Assembly: GCA_028819005.1 (NCBI GenBank)
Contig: JAPPMP010000011.1
Location: 6,100 to 70,099 of the forward strand
DNA: 64,000 nt
Direction of reading: 5' to 3'
DNA from: Acidimicrobiaceae bacterium
GTDB taxonomy: Bacteria > Actinomycetota > Acidimicrobiia > Acidimicrobiales > Aldehydirespiratoraceae
Shown: positions 55,972-64,000 of the stretch, one piece after another
Position numbering within the stretch: position 1 is the stretch's first letter
Layout: the number at the start of each line of letters is the position of its first letter
Position numbers and translations under genes: made by a program
Notes under the pieces: generated by a model
Told to the model about the DNA's origin: nothing
The model's database searches: none
What the model saw: the letters and a program-made list of their open reading frames with translations, nothing else

Positions 55972-57758
55972 TGCTCGCCCAACTCACCCAGAACAGCGTT
56001 CCTGTGGAACTGCCGCAGTATTCGCTCGCCGGGTTGAGCCCGCTGATCATCTTGGCGGTCGGGGCGTTCCTGCTCATCATGGTCCGCTCGGTCGTAAAAC
56101 GGCTGCCCGCAACCGCGGAACGCTTCGCGACCATCGCCGTAGGGCCGGCCACGGTCCTGGTCGCCTGGATTGTGGGTGGTCTGGTCGGCGATGAGATGCC
56201 GTTGGCGAACGTTCAATCCGACGTCGGCACGCTGTGGTTCGCGCTGCTCTTCGCCCTCGTTCTGGTGGTCGCCGGGCTCTTCGTGAGCACGATGCGCGCC
56301 GGTTTCGACGCGATCTTCACGTCCGGCACTGGTCTGGTCGCATTGGCTGCAATCGCCGAGTTATGGAACGACCATCACCGGGCGGCGTGGCCGGCGGAAT
56401 TCGGTGAACGGCCCGTGGGCCTGCTTGGCAATCCGGTGACCGCCATCGACGATCAGTTCTCCTTCGATGGATTCAGCCTGGTGATGGCAGGGGTGATCTT
56501 GTCGGCGGTTGTCCTCTGCGCGCTGCTGCTCGACGAGTACCTGCGCCGTGAACGCATCGATGGACCCGAGATGTACGTGCTGATGATGCTGTCGGCGGCG
56601 GGCGGCGTGGTGATGGCCGGCGCTGGTGACCTGATCGTCTTGTTCCTCGGTTTGGAGACGCTGTCGATCTCGGTCTATATCATGGCCGCCCTGCATGTTC
56701 GCAGAAGCGAGTCGCTTGAAGCAGGTTTGAAGTACTTCGTGCTCGGGGCCTTCTCGTCGGCCTTCCTGTTGTACGGGATGGCTCTGGTCTATGGCGCGAC
56801 CGGTTCATTGAACCTCCACGAGATCCGGCTCCACCTTGCTTCGGTCGTGATCCTGAAGGACGCCATGCTGTTGGCCGGACTTGCGATGATGCTGGTCGGA
56901 CTAGGTTTCAAGGTCGCAGCTGTGCCGTTCCATACGTGGACGCCGGACGTGTATCAGGGCGCTCCCACCCCGGTCGTGGCTTTCATGGCCTCGGCGGTCA
57001 AGGCCGCGGGTTTCGCAGCACTCGTGCGGGTGTTCGTGGTGACCTTTGGTCCTTCATTGAACGACACCGGTTTTCTCGCGGGCGATTATCGGCTCGACTG
57101 GCAACCCGCGGTTTTTGTTCTGGCAGTGCTGACGTTGTTGGTTGGAGCGGTGCTGGCGATCGTGCAACGCGACGTCAAACGCATGTTGGCGTACTCCTCG
57201 ATCTCCCACGCCGGGTTCATTCTGGTGGGGGTGCAGGCGGCCTCTGCTCGCGGTACAGCAGCGGTGGTCTTCTACGTGGCCGCCTATGCCTTCATGGTGA
57301 TCGGCACCTTCGGCGTGCTCACGGTCGTTTCGGGCCCCGGCGACCGCAAGACCAGCCTCGATGATCTCGATGGTCTGGCTGCTCGCCGCCCGGCTCTGGC
57401 CCTGGCCTTGACGATCTTCCTGCTGGCCCAGGCGGGTGTGCCGTTGACGACTGGATTCGTGGCGAAGTTCGAGATCATCGGCGCGGCGGTTGAAGCGCGT
57501 TCCTTCTGGCTTGCGGTGATAGCCATGGTTTCGGCGGTGGTGTCCGCTTTCCTCTACCTGCGCATCGTGCTCTCGGTGTATCTGGGGTCGCCCGCCGATG
57601 ACTCCGAGATCTCCGAAGGGCCTGCTGAGCGGGTACACCCAGCGGCCGGTCTCGCCATCGGTATTGCCCTGGCGGTCACGATCGGTTTCGGCCTCATCCC
57701 CGGCCCCATCGACCAACTGGCCACCGAAGCCATCCCGCAACTGTTCGCCAGCGGCTGA
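55971..57758 (+). CDS. nuoN: NADH-quinone oxidoreductase subunit N
   Basis: A 595-aa antiporter-like subunit closing the operon. Seen: YVLMMLSAAGGVVMAGAGDLIVLFLGLETLS (in parts), ALHVRRSESLEAGLKYFVLGAFSSAF, VPFHTWTPDVYQGAPTPVVAF and MLAYSSISHAGF. Length is at the upper end for NuoN. No terminator-like hairpin with a U-run is seen after its stop, but transcription meets a convergent remnant. Confidence 0.95.
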   Translation: MLAQLTQNSVPVELPQYSLAGLSPLIILAVGAFLLIMVRSVVKRLPATAERFATIAVGPATVLVAWIVGGLVGDEMPLANVQSDVGTLWFALLFALVLVVAGLFVSTMRAGFDAIFTSGTGLVALAAIAELWNDHHRAAWPAEFGERPVGLLGNPVTAIDDQFSFDGFSLVMAGVILSAVVLCALLLDEYLRRERIDGPEMYVLMMLSAAGGVVMAGAGDLIVLFLGLETLSISVYIMAALHVRRSESLEAGLKYFVLGAFSSAFLLYGMALVYGATGSLNLHEIRLHLASVVILKDAMLLAGLAMMLVGLGFKVAAVPFHTWTPDVYQGAPTPVVAFMASAVKAAGFAALVRVFVVTFGPSLNDTGFLAGDYRLDWQPAVFVLAVLTLLVGAVLAIVQRDVKRMLAYSSISHAGFILVGVQAASARGTAAVVFYVAAYAFMVIGTFGVLTVVSGPGDRKTSLDDLDGLAARRPALALALTIFLLAQAGVPLTTGFVAKFEIIGAAVEARSFWLAVIAMVSAVVSAFLYLRIVLSVYLGSPADDSEISEGPAERVHPAAGLAIGIALAVTIGFGLIPGPIDQLATEAIPQLFASG

Positions 57759-57790
57759 CGGTGCAAACAAATAGTGGGCGTGTAGTCGGT

Positions 57791-57949
57791 TCAGCTGCGG
57801 GGCTTTCTCTCTCTCTCTCGGTACTGCGCATGCTTGAGGTAGTCCTCGAACCACTCCTTGGTACTCGGGTCGGCGATCGCGTCGAGCCGCCGCTGCAGGT
57901 CGGCAATCACCGCCTGCCCAGTCTCTGCGGGAATGCTGCTCTCGTTCAT
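57791..57949 (-). pseudogene. Truncated N-terminus of an AlkD-like DNA alkylation repair protein
   Basis: ATG 57949 opens 52 codons reading RRLDAIADPSTKEWFEDYLK and HAQYR. This resembles the first helices of HEAT-repeat DNA glycosylases of the AlkD type (DPxxKxWFxxYLKGA-x-YRG). The frame then runs into a CT dinucleotide run (about 57808-57820) and stops. The rest of the gene is absent because nuoN abuts. This is a fragment at the border between the nuo operon and the defence-like operon, not a working enzyme. Family match from memory. Confidence 0.4.
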
Positions 57950-58139
57950 AGTCCGAACGCCGACCGATAGCGGGCGTGTCACCGTACCCGGCTTCTCCCG
58001 ATTCCGATGGATGCACGGCGTCTCGCTGCCGAGAGGATCCATACGGACCAGTTCTTCGCAGCGACGTTTGCGAAGCGATCTATCCGTGACATAGAGAATC
58101 TGGGTGGCCTGGGACAAAACCGCCTACGCTTTGCGGACT

Positions 58140-59369
58140 ATGGCGACGGCTCCTGGATATCTGCCTCAGTTGGACTCGCGCAAGGCGTTCGTCGACTACC
58201 TCGAGGGCTACGCCGAACCCACTGTGGAGGAATTAGAAGACGGCAAGCTGAATCGAAAACTGCTCAAGACTTACATGCTGGAGACAGCACGACACGAGAG
58301 CGCGACGCCAAGTATGGATTCGCTGTTTCCTGGGCACGTTCGGTTGCAGCGCCTCGATGACACGCTGTACCGCGTTGAAGACAGCGAGCACGAGGGTCGC
58401 GTTGTCGGTCTGCTGGAGGTGCTCGAAGAGCGCCATCCGGTCTGGTACACGACGCTCGACGCAAAAATCAGCAACAAGTGGGTTCGACAAGTTGTGGACC
58501 GCAACCCCTGGCTGGACCGGCTCTGGCTGTCGTCGCCGATCCTCTTTGAGTTGTGGAATTACGTGAAGCGCACGACTCCGGCACATCGGTACGTGCGTCT
58601 AGGTTTTGAGCACGAAGCCTGGTACGAGGCCACACATTGGTTTGCTGAAGCCGACGAGGAGGACTTCGACAATAACGAACCACAAAATGACGATTCGGTT
58701 CGGGGACTCGCAGAGCGCCGCCGGTCACGGGTGACGCTAACCGAGCAGCTTGGTGTGCTCGAGGAGAAGTTGCCCAGCTTCCGCTCTCTGTACGACCCGA
58801 TGCACTCTTTGGTGAGTTTGCAGATCCCGAGTGGAAACCGCGGCGGACACTTGCTTTTCTTTGACGGCCACGCGACGAATCGGAGCGATTCGTTCGTTGA
58901 GCACCGTCGAGAGATTGCAAAGGTGCTGAAGCTGTACCGCGCCGTCACCGAATACTCCGAGGACCAGCTCTGGTTAGAAACGACCGAAGTCGGTGACGAC
59001 GCTTTCACGGTCAAGGGCGCTCCAGTCACGATTCGGTTCAGCCGACCCCTCCATGAGGACACTTTCGCGCGTTTTGTCGACCTTGGCTTGAAACGTCGGA
59101 CGAGCAAGCTCCGCATAGGCGGTTACGTCACAAGGCGTGGTCCCACCAAAGTTCACGTTGCAGCCATTGATCGGCATCTCTGGCAGCCCTTTCTGCTCGA
59201 GGCTACAAGTCGGCAGCTCACCGCTGTGCTGCCTCGCGGCACCTGTGGCAACACGATTCACCGTCTTGTGACCAACGTCCAGCGATTGCTTGATCCGAAC
59301 GTTGAGGTCTGGCTCGGCAGTGAACTGTATGAGACCGCTGTTGCGAACTCCATGCAAACCGCCGCATGA
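58140..59369 (+). CDS. Unrecognised protein leading the DISARM-like operon (409 aa)
   Basis: A soluble 409-aa protein I cannot place. The N-terminal part is helical and acidic (AFVDYLEGYAEPTVEELEDG). A middle region is rich in aromatic residues (PILFELWNYV, FEHEAWYEATHWFAEADEED). The C-terminal half looks like alpha/beta with SLQIPSGNRGGHLLFFDGHA and GGYVTRRGPTKVHVAAIDRHL. No nuclease, kinase or SAM motif is visible. ATG 58140 is preferred; GTG 58104 would add 12 residues. A weak promoter may lie at 58066-58097. It overlaps the next gene by four bases, so it belongs to the operon. Codon use is less GC-biased than nuo. Confidence 0.75.
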   Translation: MATAPGYLPQLDSRKAFVDYLEGYAEPTVEELEDGKLNRKLLKTYMLETARHESATPSMDSLFPGHVRLQRLDDTLYRVEDSEHEGRVVGLLEVLEERHPVWYTTLDAKISNKWVRQVVDRNPWLDRLWLSSPILFELWNYVKRTTPAHRYVRLGFEHEAWYEATHWFAEADEEDFDNNEPQNDDSVRGLAERRRSRVTLTEQLGVLEEKLPSFRSLYDPMHSLVSLQIPSGNRGGHLLFFDGHATNRSDSFVEHRREIAKVLKLYRAVTEYSEDQLWLETTEVGDDAFTVKGAPVTIRFSRPLHEDTFARFVDLGLKRRTSKLRIGGYVTRRGPTKVHVAAIDRHLWQPFLLEATSRQLTAVLPRGTCGNTIHRLVTNVQRLLDPNVEVWLGSELYETAVANSMQTAA

Positions 59370-60445
59370 CCGACGAATCCGCTCTGCTCTCGGATCAGGT
59401 CTTCCAGCTGAACACGTTCTTGTGGGCATTGGAGGAGCTTCCCGAAAATAGCGATGCACGACCGGTGCTACGGGAAGCTGGATACTACCTCGTAGCTATC
59501 GAGAGAAACGTGCTTGTGCCTACCGATGAAACAACGCTGGCAGCGCTTGCAACCTTGGCTGAGATCACTGATCGAAGTCCTTGCCGCCCAGACCTCTGGC
59601 TCAGGCACGCGACCGATGCCTTCGAACCGCTCATTGAGCTCAAGGCTCATGGATTTTCGCCGGAATCGTCGAATCGAAGACAAGCGTTGAAGCTCATCGC
59701 ATCGGTGTCTGACCTTGCCCCATCACTCGGTGAGACGGATGTACGACCGGGGCATGTGATATACGCGACCGGAGTCGACGACGCCAACGACATGGCCTCG
59801 ACTCTAAGCACCTTGGCAGCGGAACTAGATTCGGAAGGAGTCAACCCTGCACCGACCGGAGCGATCGGACTAGCCATTGAAGACAAGGGAGTTGTCCTGT
59901 CAAGTCCAGACACTACCGATTTACCGGGACCACTTGGTAACGCGCTAGCGAACCGTCCAACCGTTCTCCATCGAGATGGCGAGAACGATCTTCAGCCCCT
60001 GTATTTCATTCCGTGGATTCCAGGAATCAAGGACAGCCAAGATGCAGAATTGCACTCTGCTGGACTTCGCGAACTCACCGCTCGTGTGCTAACCAATCTG
60101 CTCGCTGCTGTCGGCCAAGCGCTGCCACCGACCACGGTTGTCCTGCGCGGTGACACCCTGCTCAGGGATGCAACATTTGGCATATCCGACCGGTGGAGAG
60201 ACAAAGATAGGCGGACGTTCAGCGACTCGGTTGTCAAGGTCGTGGAAAGAACCCTCAAGTCTGTCGTCGATCTGAACCGTCCCTCTACTGATTCTCGCGA
60301 GTTCGATCTTCCGGACCTCGAAACCAAAGATGCGGTAATCGACCGCATTGAGAACGCGGACCCGGCTGATCCTTCAACGAACTTGCAAGCGATCACCGAA
60401 GAACCACCAAGCTTGTTCGACGAGTTCACGGACGGGTCCAAATGA
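59366..60445 (+). CDS. Unrecognised second protein of the DISARM-like operon (359 aa)
   Basis: A soluble 359-aa protein, second of four overlapping genes. Its N-terminus is helical (LNTFLWALEELPENSDARPV), the middle alternates strands and loops (VIYATGVDDANDMASTLSTL, GAIGLAIEDKGVVLSS), and residues about 210-270 read as a helical bundle (GLRELTARVLTNLLAAVGQA). The C-terminus is acidic and ends SLFDEFTDGSK. No catalytic motif is evident, so a structural or adaptor role is possible. It starts with ATG 59366 and overlaps drmD by four bases. Confidence 0.75.
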   Translation: MTDESALLSDQVFQLNTFLWALEELPENSDARPVLREAGYYLVAIERNVLVPTDETTLAALATLAEITDRSPCRPDLWLRHATDAFEPLIELKAHGFSPESSNRRQALKLIASVSDLAPSLGETDVRPGHVIYATGVDDANDMASTLSTLAAELDSEGVNPAPTGAIGLAIEDKGVVLSSPDTTDLPGPLGNALANRPTVLHRDGENDLQPLYFIPWIPGIKDSQDAELHSAGLRELTARVLTNLLAAVGQALPPTTVVLRGDTLLRDATFGISDRWRDKDRRTFSDSVVKVVERTLKSVVDLNRPSTDSREFDLPDLETKDAVIDRIENADPADPSTNLQAITEEPPSLFDEFTDGSK

Positions 60446-63400
60446 CGGTTCTCGAGTCGCAGTTGGCGGTGGCCGTACCGGAGCAGGGGAACCTTGTTCG
60501 TGCCCGGGATCGGTATTGGGTGGTTGAGTCTGTGCGACAGTCGTCGCGTCCGCTGGACCCGATGAGCTCCAACGGTTTGACGCGCCATCATCTGGTCCGC
60601 CTCGTGCCGATCGATGACAAAGGCGCCCCAGACCCGCTCAGTGTCTTCTGGGAGACCGAACCCGGTACTGAGGTCCGTCCACAAGCCGAGTTGCCCGACC
60701 CCAGGGAAGGTGTCGACGACGCTGACACCTTCGCCGCTTTCCTCGACGCGGCGCGTTGGGGAGCCATAGCCTCGGCTGACCCCAGAGCGTTCCAATCGCC
60801 GTTTAGGGCTGGTATCGACATCGAGGACTATCAGCTTCTCCCGCTGGTCCGATCACTGCGTATGCCACGGGTCAGCCTGCTGATCGCGGACGATGTCGGC
60901 TTGGGCAAGACGGTCGAGGCCGGCCTGATTGCCCAGGAACTCGTGTTGCGAAACCAGGCTCAGAAGATTCTCGTGATCTGTCCGCCGAACCTGTGCCGCA
61001 AGTGGCAACGTGAGATGCGCGAACAGTTCGGTCTCGCCTTTGAGATCGTCGACACCGACTATGTGCACAGACTTCGGCGAGAGCGTGGTGTTGGGGTCAA
61101 TCCGTTCCGGTCATATCCGCGGCTCATCGCGTCGATGGAGTGGATCAAGTTCGAATCGCAGATGCGCTGGTTCGACGAGTTCCTCCCACCCGATCCCAAC
61201 ACCTACCCGCGGGCGCTCGATTTGCTCATCGTCGACGAAGCACACCGGATCGCCCCGTCCGCCGTGGGTCGATACGCCAAGGAATCCTTGCGCACCAAGA
61301 CCATGCGCCGTCTGGCACCGCACTTCGAGCATCGTTTGTTCTTGACGGCGACTCCCCACAACGGCTTCGCCGAGTCATTTCAGGCGCTACTTGAGATGCT
61401 CGATCCAAACCGCTTCACCAAAGGCGTGCAACCGAGCGAGCGGGAACGGGACGCTGTGATGGTGCGTCGCCTGAAGTCGCACCTTCGCACGATGCTGCCG
61501 GACGGCGAGCAGCGATTCCCGAAGCGCAAGATCGGGGCCATCAGGGTGGCGTTCCCATCTGAAGAATGTGAACTGTTCGACATGCTGGACCAGTATGCTT
61601 CTCTTCGCAGGAGCGCTGCGGAGACACCGGCCGAGAGGGCTGCCTCGAGGTTCATTTCGCTGCTGCTCAAGAAGCGGCTGCTGTCGTCACCGGCTGCGTT
61701 CAAGCACACACTCGACCAGCACATCTCGACGCTCAACAAGGCCTCTCAGCGGAGGACAACCGAGCGAGCGATCACGGAGGCCGTGGCCGCTCTAGAAGAT
61801 GAGGCCGACGACACTGAAGCTGTGTCGGAGCAGGAGATTGAGGCTCTGGCGTTGGCCGCGGGTGCACTTCCCGACCGTGACGGCGCGCAGGAACAGATCG
61901 TTCTGGCACGGATGCGAGCGAGGACGGGCAACGTTGATTCCGCTGCAGCGATACTTGATCGATTGCGTCACCGGGCCGACGATTGCTGGCGCAGGCCAGA
62001 TGCCAAGACAGAGCGGCTAATGGACTGGATCGCCGAAACCTGTTTCCCCGACGGCGAATGGAACGACGAGCGGGTCATCGTCTTCACGGAGTACCGGGCG
62101 ACGCTCAACTACCTCGACGAGATTCTGACGGCGCCCCACCCCGACCGGCCCTCAATGGACGGACGAGTGGAGGTGTTCCACGGAAGTCTCGAATCTGAGG
62201 ACCGAGAGCGCATCATCCGCGAGTTCAACTACAACCCTCGCAAGACCAAGGTGCGGGTGTTGCTCGCCACCGATGCCGCATCTGAAGGGATCGACCTGCA
62301 CCGGCGGTGTCACCGGCTCGTGCATGCGGAAGTGCCGTTCAATCCGAATCGGATGGAGCAGCGCAACGGCCGGGTCGACCGACACGGCCAGAAGTCCGAC
62401 ACGGTCGACATCTTCCATTTCGCTTCGTTAACTGACGACCAGGATGACGCTCTCGGATACGACCATTCATTTCTGCTGCGACTGGCCCAGAAAGTGGACG
62501 ACATCCGTGACGACCTGGGATCGGTGTCATCGGTGCTGGCTGAGCAGGTCGAGGCTCGCATGCTGCGAGAAGGGTTCCGCGACCTCGATATCGACGCGGC
62601 GATTGCCGTCCGGCGAGATCAAGCCCGCGTCGATCTCGAGCGGATCAAGCAGCAGTTTTCGTCCGACATCAGCCGGGTGCGTGATCATTACCGCACAAGC
62701 GCAGATGAACTAGCGCTGAGCCCCGAAAACGTGCAGCGGGCCGTGCAAGTGGCGCTGCGGATCGAGGGTCAGCCGATGCTGCGCGAATTGACACTGGCGC
62801 GACCCGAAGGCGACGTTCCCGTGCTCGAAGTTGACGATCTCAGCGGCACATGGGGCGAGACCCTTGTCGGATTGTACAACGAGGTCGAGGACTATCGCCT
62901 GCCAGTCACCTTCGACCCGAACGTGGCGCGTGGGCAGGACGATGTCGTGTACCTCCATGTCGGCCACCCGTTCGTGGCCCGCTGCTTGCGGACCTTGCGC
63001 GCGCAGGTCTGGGGTTCGGCAGTGGACCGCAAGATCAACCGCGTCGCAGTTCGATACGCCGACATTGCGGAGCCCGTCGCAATCGCCCACGCCCGCGTTG
63101 TCGTCAATGGGGCCGACGGTTCGACACTCGACGAGGTCATAGAACCCGCCGCGGTTCGAGTCGGTGGTCGTCAAGGGCGGCTGAATGTGGGCGAGACCCG
63201 AGCGGCCGTCACGTCCGCCACCGCGGAATCTCCGCCAGATCATGTGCGCGGTCGCTACGTCGACCAGTGGCAGCGAGTGCAGCCGGCTGTCGAAACGGCC
63301 TTGCGGGTCAGAGCCGACGAGATGCGCGAGCAGCGGAGCAGGGCAATGGACGCGAAGCGTGACGCCGAGGAACGGCGCCTGCGCGGAACCCTCGCCGATC

Positions 63401-63648
63401 TCCAATCCAGCATCCAGCGTCGGCTTGACGAATTGGAGCAATCCGAAGACGTCGAGCAACTCCGACTGTTCGACACCGACGAGCGCAGGCAGTTCGACGC
63501 CGACATGCAAGCTCTGCGAAATCGCATCGAACGGATCAGTGATGACGTCGACGCCGAAGTCGAGGTGCTTCGACGCCGTTACGCCGTGCGCGATGTCAAT
63601 TGGTTCCCGGTCGCCGTCGAGTTCCTCGTGCCGCTCGGAGCCAAGTAG
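60442..63648 (+). CDS. SNF2-like helicase, DrmD-like (class 1 DISARM)
   Basis: A 1068-aa superfamily 2 ATPase/helicase of the SNF2 type. Motifs: Walker A IADDVGLGKTVEAGL (about residue 150), motif II LLIVDEAHRIAP (about 264), motif III LFLTATPHNGF, motif IV VIVFTEYRATLNYL, motif V VLLATDAASEGIDL (about 610) and motif VI NPNRMEQRNGRVDRHGQ (about 635). A long C-terminal region ends in a coiled coil (about 975-1035). The architecture and the methyltransferase start directly after match DrmD of class 1 DISARM, which restricts phage DNA. Related SNF2 proteins occur in other systems, so the assignment rests partly on context. Confidence 0.85.
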   Translation: MTVLESQLAVAVPEQGNLVRARDRYWVVESVRQSSRPLDPMSSNGLTRHHLVRLVPIDDKGAPDPLSVFWETEPGTEVRPQAELPDPREGVDDADTFAAFLDAARWGAIASADPRAFQSPFRAGIDIEDYQLLPLVRSLRMPRVSLLIADDVGLGKTVEAGLIAQELVLRNQAQKILVICPPNLCRKWQREMREQFGLAFEIVDTDYVHRLRRERGVGVNPFRSYPRLIASMEWIKFESQMRWFDEFLPPDPNTYPRALDLLIVDEAHRIAPSAVGRYAKESLRTKTMRRLAPHFEHRLFLTATPHNGFAESFQALLEMLDPNRFTKGVQPSERERDAVMVRRLKSHLRTMLPDGEQRFPKRKIGAIRVAFPSEECELFDMLDQYASLRRSAAETPAERAASRFISLLLKKRLLSSPAAFKHTLDQHISTLNKASQRRTTERAITEAVAALEDEADDTEAVSEQEIEALALAAGALPDRDGAQEQIVLARMRARTGNVDSAAAILDRLRHRADDCWRRPDAKTERLMDWIAETCFPDGEWNDERVIVFTEYRATLNYLDEILTAPHPDRPSMDGRVEVFHGSLESEDRERIIREFNYNPRKTKVRVLLATDAASEGIDLHRRCHRLVHAEVPFNPNRMEQRNGRVDRHGQKSDTVDIFHFASLTDDQDDALGYDHSFLLRLAQKVDDIRDDLGSVSSVLAEQVEARMLREGFRDLDIDAAIAVRRDQARVDLERIKQQFSSDISRVRDHYRTSADELALSPENVQRAVQVALRIEGQPMLRELTLARPEGDVPVLEVDDLSGTWGETLVGLYNEVEDYRLPVTFDPNVARGQDDVVYLHVGHPFVARCLRTLRAQVWGSAVDRKINRVAVRYADIAEPVAIAHARVVVNGADGSTLDEVIEPAAVRVGGRQGRLNVGETRAAVTSATAESPPDHVRGRYVDQWQRVQPAVETALRVRADEMREQRSRAMDAKRDAEERRLRGTLADLQSSIQRRLDELEQSEDVEQLRLFDTDERRQFDADMQALRNRIERISDDVDAEVEVLRRRYAVRDVNWFPVAVEFLVPLGAK

Positions 63649-64000
63649 TGGCCGCCCGCCGACGCGTCGCCGAACAGCACGAAGACTGGCTCAATCTTGC
63701 CGACGCCGAGGCTCCGTGGTTCTCGTTGCCGGTACTCAAGCGGGCGTTTGCGAACGGTCTCGATCCGACCCCGCCCGAGATCCGAGCTGAGCACAAAGCC
63801 CGGTGGTACGGCGACGAGCAAGTCGAATCGGCGCGAATTGCCGAGGACCGCACCGAGTACATCGACTGGCTCCTACGGGATGTCCTGAACTGGAAGGCCG
63901 ACTACCTGACGGGCACCGAGTTGCCCGAAACGCTTGCCGGCGGTGTCTCTCATCACGATGTCACCGTCACACCCACAGGCGTGTACCGACCGACGTCTGT
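63648..64000 (+). CDS. DrmMI-like DNA adenine methyltransferase, N-terminal part (runs off the window)
   Basis: A GTG at 63648 overlaps the last base of the helicase stop and opens 117 codons to the window edge. The start (AEQHEDWLNLADAEAPWFSL, then PVLKRAFANGLDPTPPEIRA) resembles, from memory, the N-terminus of class 1 DISARM adenine methyltransferases. The SAM and catalytic motifs lie beyond the window, so the call rests on this segment and on gene order after DrmD. It would mark host DNA to protect it. Confidence 0.65.
   Translation, partial: MAARRRVAEQHEDWLNLADAEAPWFSLPVLKRAFANGLDPTPPEIRAEHKARWYGDEQVESARIAEDRTEYIDWLLRDVLNWKADYLTGTELPETLAGGVSHHDVTVTPTGVYRPTS

Follow-up and report, generated by a model that had tools for sequence, protein, structure and literature searches.

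A class 1 DISARM variant that carries an undescribed, separately existing gene pair with a predicted nuclease

DISARM can do without its nuclease DrmC, which many loci lack; the recruitment of other nucleases in its place, and the mixing and matching of DISARM components, have been proposed (Bravo et al., PMC9142583). Class 1 DISARM comprises drmD, drmMI, drmA, drmB and drmC, and the locus described here differs from this set in that drmC is absent, drmMI is frameshifted, and two extra genes, g1 and g2, stand at the front and overlap into drmD. What are these two genes, and do they belong to DISARM? We find that the locus is a class 1 DISARM variant carrying an undescribed, separately existing gene pair, one member of which is, from its sequence, a predicted PD-(D/E)XK nuclease. 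Its intact g2, in a DrmC-free DISARM operon, is a concrete candidate for the DNA-destroying activity. The window, by which we mean the whole stretch of 64,000 nucleotides that was analysed, is C44:6100-70099 of a 3.06 Mb assembly that is 98% complete.

The locus is preceded by a nuo operon, in which nuoN ends at position 57758. A preliminary description of the window had proposed a class 1 DISARM-like locus and called for the contig to be extended. Read beyond position 64000, the contig gives the order g1, g2, drmD, drmMI, drmA, drmB (Table 1), which confirms the proposal and supplies drmA and drmB, with drmC absent. The four DISARM genes are in canonical order and score above the curated cut-offs where these exist: drmD reaches 1100.6 bits against NCBIfam DISARM_DrmD NF038317 (cut-off 610), drmA 1252.9 bits against NF038325 (cut-off 950) and drmB 656 bits against NF038324 (cut-off 240), while drmMI, an adenine methyltransferase gene, reaches 1318 bits against PADLOC DrmMI. 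The leading genes, of 409 and 359 residues, are joined to drmD as had been described. The junctions, read directly, are ATGA at 59366-59369 (g1/g2) and at 60442-60445 (g2/drmD), each a 4-base overlap, and TAGTG at 63646-63650 (drmD/drmMI), a 1-base overlap; ATGA overlaps also occur at drmA and drmB. A promoter scan upstream of the locus gave no match.

Table 1. Features of the g1-g2-DISARM locus, in window numbering (the window ends at 64000)
Feature	Position	Strand	Remarks
g1	58140-59369	+	409 aa from ATG; PHROG 22469 family; partner protein, fold unassigned
g1 C-terminal signature	59238-59294	+	residues 367-385
g2	59366-60445	+	359 aa; predicted PD-(D/E)XK nuclease
g2 PD-(D/E)XK motif (predicted)	59588-59644	+	P75-D76 ... 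E91-L-K93
g2 C-terminal PPSLF	60404-60418	+	found by eye; putative
drmD	60442-63648	+	1068 aa; SNF2-like helicase of class 1 DISARM
drmMI	63648 to about 67825	+	methyltransferase; only the start, to 64000, lies in the window
drmA	67822-71484		past window end; profile match
drmB	71481-73343		past window end; profile match

No drmC was found in the locus or anywhere in the assembly at E 0.001, using a DrmC model that, as a control, had matches in 9 of 14 genomes. The locus is a class 1 DISARM without drmC, and its class 1 membership stands because drmC is regarded as dispensable and often missing (PMC9142583). Downstream of drmB lie a small antitoxin-like ORF, a PemK-type toxin gene (PF02452, E 3e-25), an aminoglycoside-phosphotransferase-like (APH) gene and a second nuo operon. 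The PemK/MazF-type toxin gene and the small ORF that overlaps it occupy L002:15997-16589 (window 73397-73989), the site expected for drmC; a drmC hidden among the ORFs 3' of drmB was ruled out, these being the toxin gene and the antitoxin-like ORF upstream of it. A frameshift near L002:9750 (window about 67150; range L002:9700-9800, window about 67100-67200) breaks drmMI into two frames, between the methylase part and the end of the target-recognition part. This frameshift may be real decay or an assembly error, and the window copy is possibly decaying.

Neither g1 nor g2 has a Pfam, NCBIfam or PADLOC match at E 1, in agreement with the earlier statement that they lack counterparts in the described class 1 set. 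A housekeeping family, which had been named as an outcome that would speak against a DISARM role, is ruled out for both by the Pfam and NCBIfam results. We regard g1 and g2 as real genes because their relatives are conserved over the full length and because g1 shows a dN/dS of 0.08-0.17 in nearly all pairs compared, including those between copies without g2. Strong constraint on g1 is seen also where g2 is damaged, with constraint before and after the loss being inseparable. The ATG start of g1 is preferred to a GTG at 58104, which would give 421 aa, because it agrees with relatives such as L014. g1 matches PHROG 22469 (function unassigned) at E 1.6e-7, and the Halobacterium g1 does so at E 2e-53; the best conserved part of g1 across bacteria and archaea is the C-terminal GTCGNTIHRLVTNVQRLLD. 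The likely role of g1 is target binding or control of the nuclease.

For g2, the motif PD-x14-ELK is kept in eight Acidimicrobiia sequences, and every intact copy in the Acidimicrobiia alignment has P75, D76, E91 and K93. Equivalents are present in distant relatives of about 16-23% identity, namely PDVIL...FECK in Methanocaldococcus jannaschii, PDVVL...VDCK in Halobacterium, PEVVL...IECK in Metabacillus and YDICL...IEIK in Lysinibacillus; Metabacillus has PE instead of PD, and Lysinibacillus lacks the P and keeps the D and ExK. Judged by sequence, this motif is a PD-(D/E)XK signature. The same stretch of the M. jannaschii protein gives weak Pfam matches, all below cut-off, to HSDR_N_2, L_protein_N and DUF234 (E 0.01-0.07), which we take to be members of the PD-(D/E)XK superfamily. 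Together, these features suggest that g2 is a nuclease. What counts against this assignment is that no significant family or fold match was obtained: profile searches of the PDB gave no match, the AlphaFold models are poor (mean pLDDT 46 for g1 and 52 for g2), and Foldseek searches with these low-confidence models gave no informative match. The Halobacterium g2 matches PHROG 27163 (function unassigned; E 1.9e-8), and the window g2 does not. Many g2 proteins end in [Q/P]-x-[ST]-L-F (QLSLF in Lysinibacillus), which resembles sliding-clamp-binding peptides and is only a lead.

The pair also exists without DISARM. It is found on four unrelated plasmids, of Metabacillus, M. jannaschii, Lysinibacillus irui and Halobacterium hubeiense, in the same order, with overlapping ends and with no DISARM nearby. 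Among the Acidimicrobiia, where one contig scan and searches of whole genomes were used to seek relatives, loci L011-L016 hold an intact pair with no adjoining DISARM. Defence-type neighbours of the pair include type I restriction-modification genes (L012, L014), Gabija-like genes (L011) and an OLD-like ATPase gene (M. jannaschii). The best reading of these loci is that g1-g2 would be an autonomous, mobile and as yet unnamed two-gene module whose range extends from Bacillota to methanogens and haloarchaea. A scan for g1 across the phylum with a close-relative profile recovered the query alone. Viral contigs and phage records yielded no relative, which disfavours a virus-borne origin, yet PHROG 22469 shows that there are viral or proviral members.

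The preliminary description had raised the possibility that g1 and g2 are an unreported core component of class 1 DISARM. Operon coupling in the query's genus favours this, as does co-occurrence with DrmB in the query's family: among 51 genomes, DrmB is over its cut-off in 11 and g1 is present in 11, with both in 9, so that 9 of the 11 DrmB genomes carry g1 (Fisher p 9e-7, or 3e-4 without the query's genus, kinship being ignored in both). In one of these nine, G673, the two lie far apart. However, the sister DISARM loci have no pair beside drmD (ordinary genes precede it in G673, a GmrSD_N gene in G660 and other genes in G680 and G240), g1 is found in none of the 29 plasmid records with a drmD match, and the pair occurs without DISARM in archaea and Bacillota. 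The pair is missing from most DISARM loci examined, and a role as a DISARM core gene, rejected on account of its absence from the sister loci and from plasmid DISARM, appears highly improbable. Among Acidimicrobiia the pair does show linkage to DISARM. The gene overlaps had also been taken to imply a fixed stoichiometry with the helicase, which is not borne out, since g1 and g2 overlap in relatives too and the coupling to drmD is confined to the query's genus. Across the class, linkage is seen in the query's genus only; G240 has both the pair and DISARM, on different contigs.

Where pair and DISARM are linked, two arrangements are seen. The first, g1-g2-drmD-drmMI-drmA-drmB, is that of the window's genome (G000) and is present in damaged form in G655 and G295. 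The second, drmD-drmMI-(other genes)-g1-g2-drmA-drmB-drmC, is found in G662, G663 and G672, with remnants in G671 and G654, and has both g1-g2 and drmC. Between the two types drmA is about 37% identical and g1 58% identical. The closest relative of the window-clade g1 is L011, a copy without adjoining DISARM, and a tree in which all DISARM-linked g1 group together fails the AU test (p = 0.001); the association therefore arose more than once. An accessory module fits the two operon positions and the family-wide co-occurrence, and to that extent has partial support.

The surroundings of these loci vary. The block from g1 into DISARM lies at different genomic places in G295 and in G000/G655. At the nuoN-APH site (compared from window 57758-58140), which is variable in the genus, the window's genome has g1-g2-DISARM and G246 has a solute-binding-like gene (L075:598-2994). 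The GmrSD_N (DUF262) gene of G660, at L096:1747-3447, is directly upstream of drmD, the position of g1-g2 in the window. In the second DISARM lineage, the slot between drmMI and g1 holds a ThsB-TIR-like gene and a small putative membrane protein gene in G672 (L089:11410-12307), an AAA ATPase gene in L087 and DUF7380 in L088; it looks like a cargo site because other loci hold different genes there.

Such variation could mean that g1-g2 is a mere passenger: a defence or toxin-antitoxin-like module in its own right, which came to join the operon by chance within a defence island and does no joint work with DISARM. This would suit the common stand-alone copies, the other cargo in neighbouring slots (GmrSD_N before drmD in G660, ThsB-TIR between drmMI and g1 in G672) and the deletion of g2 in most DISARM-linked copies. 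It sits poorly with the module having been captured twice independently, both times immediately upstream of a gene for a DISARM helicase, with the different genomic places of the block and the G246 site without it, and with the strong constraint on g1 even where g2 is damaged, though constraint before and after the loss is inseparable. We consider it rather unlikely.

The history of g2 bears on this further. Nine copies of the pair are DISARM-linked, and g2 is intact in two of them (the window and G662) and deleted or truncated in the other seven, where most of the breakpoints differ; a shared first break in g2 is possible for G295 and G654:C204. At the same loci g1 is intact in 7/9 (p = 0.057 for the difference from g2), drmA, drmB and drmD are disrupted in 3/22 gene copies from ORF lists read by eye (p 0.001 against g2), and drmMI is disrupted in about 2/6. 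Among stand-alone copies, which were located by g1 and not by g2, four are clear cases, and three of these have an intact g2. With small samples of related genomes, drawn from metagenome assemblies, the pattern of g2 loss is suggestive only. In G295, g2 is gone while g1 and the four DISARM genes are all present, and DISARM apparently persists there without it. In G654:C204, g1 and the first parts of g2 and drmD remain beside an APH gene, a deletion scar of a whole DISARM. In G655 (L076) a deletion fuses drmMI residue 665 to drmA residue 527 and drmD is split too; this DISARM copy is probably dead.

These losses could also indicate that g1 is the part useful to DISARM, as a DNA- or modification-recognition subunit (a 'sensor'), with g2 dispensable or harmful and being lost. 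The excess of intact g1 over intact g2 and the low dN/dS of g1 between copies lacking g2 are as this would predict, but g2 may have been lost recently, the searches showed g1 as a DISARM gene in Acidimicrobiia alone, and the difference between the two genes has a p of 0.057. We find this distinctly unlikely.

The explanation that we prefer, with a probability of about 0.6, is that g1-g2 is a self-contained nuclease module that stands alone in some genomes and near restriction systems in others, and that class 1 DISARM operons of Acidimicrobiia have taken up on at least two occasions as an alternative to DrmC. The two proteins would make up a two-component nuclease, with g2 doing the cutting and g1 acting in recognition or restraint. 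DrmAB/DrmD would engage unmethylated phage DNA first, and g2 would then cut the DNA in the role usually given to DrmC; since the window's DISARM has no DrmC, g2 would be the likely DNA-cutting activity. Frequent loss of g2 would fit a costly DNase. The motif kept in divergent relatives, the same pair order on four plasmids, the two DISARM arrangements, the AU rejection, the absence of drmC and the restriction or defence genes near other copies support this explanation. The gene set, its overlaps, the conservation of pair and motif, the separate existence of the pair, its repeated linkage and the repeated loss of g2 are observed; nuclease activity, a recognition or regulatory role of g1 and cooperation with DISARM are what we infer. 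The disruption of g2 in most DISARM-linked copies, the presence of drmC alongside g1-g2 in the second lineage and, unless it is an assembly error, the frameshift in the window's drmMI count against this explanation. A broader proposal, that the pair is an undescribed antiviral nuclease system of bacteria and archaea, annexed independently by class 1 DISARM and replacing DrmC in the window's lineage, with DISARM as a mix-and-match effector platform, is tentative and falls short of even odds.

Among the closest known groups, the two PHROG families matched here, 22469 (window g1) and 27163 (Halobacterium g2), are unnamed, and the window g2 has no match to the latter. Two-gene nuclease defence or toxin-antitoxin pairs such as Hachiman HamAB likewise consist of adjacent genes, one for a predicted PD-(D/E)XK-type nuclease, a fold that we presume for HamA; unlike in these, the window g1 is no helicase, nor does it match any family of antitoxins. 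HamA of Hachiman is a nuclease (PMC12278908). BRIGADE and TALON (PMC12458937) are YprA-family helicase operons that also have a PD-(D/E)xK nuclease gene nearby, whereas the window holds a true DISARM with separate drmA and drmB and an upstream predicted nuclease that has g1 as its partner; deazaguanine and TOTE genes were not seen. In genome G006 the order is reversed, with a nuclease-like gene ahead of a distant g1-like gene. A run of genes at L082:5451-19899 leads into these two, with a SNF2-like helicase, a DrmMI-like methylase, a GmrSD_N-Schlafen fusion, a calcineurin-like phosphoesterase and an SMC-like ATPase, and is possibly a further undescribed defence operon.
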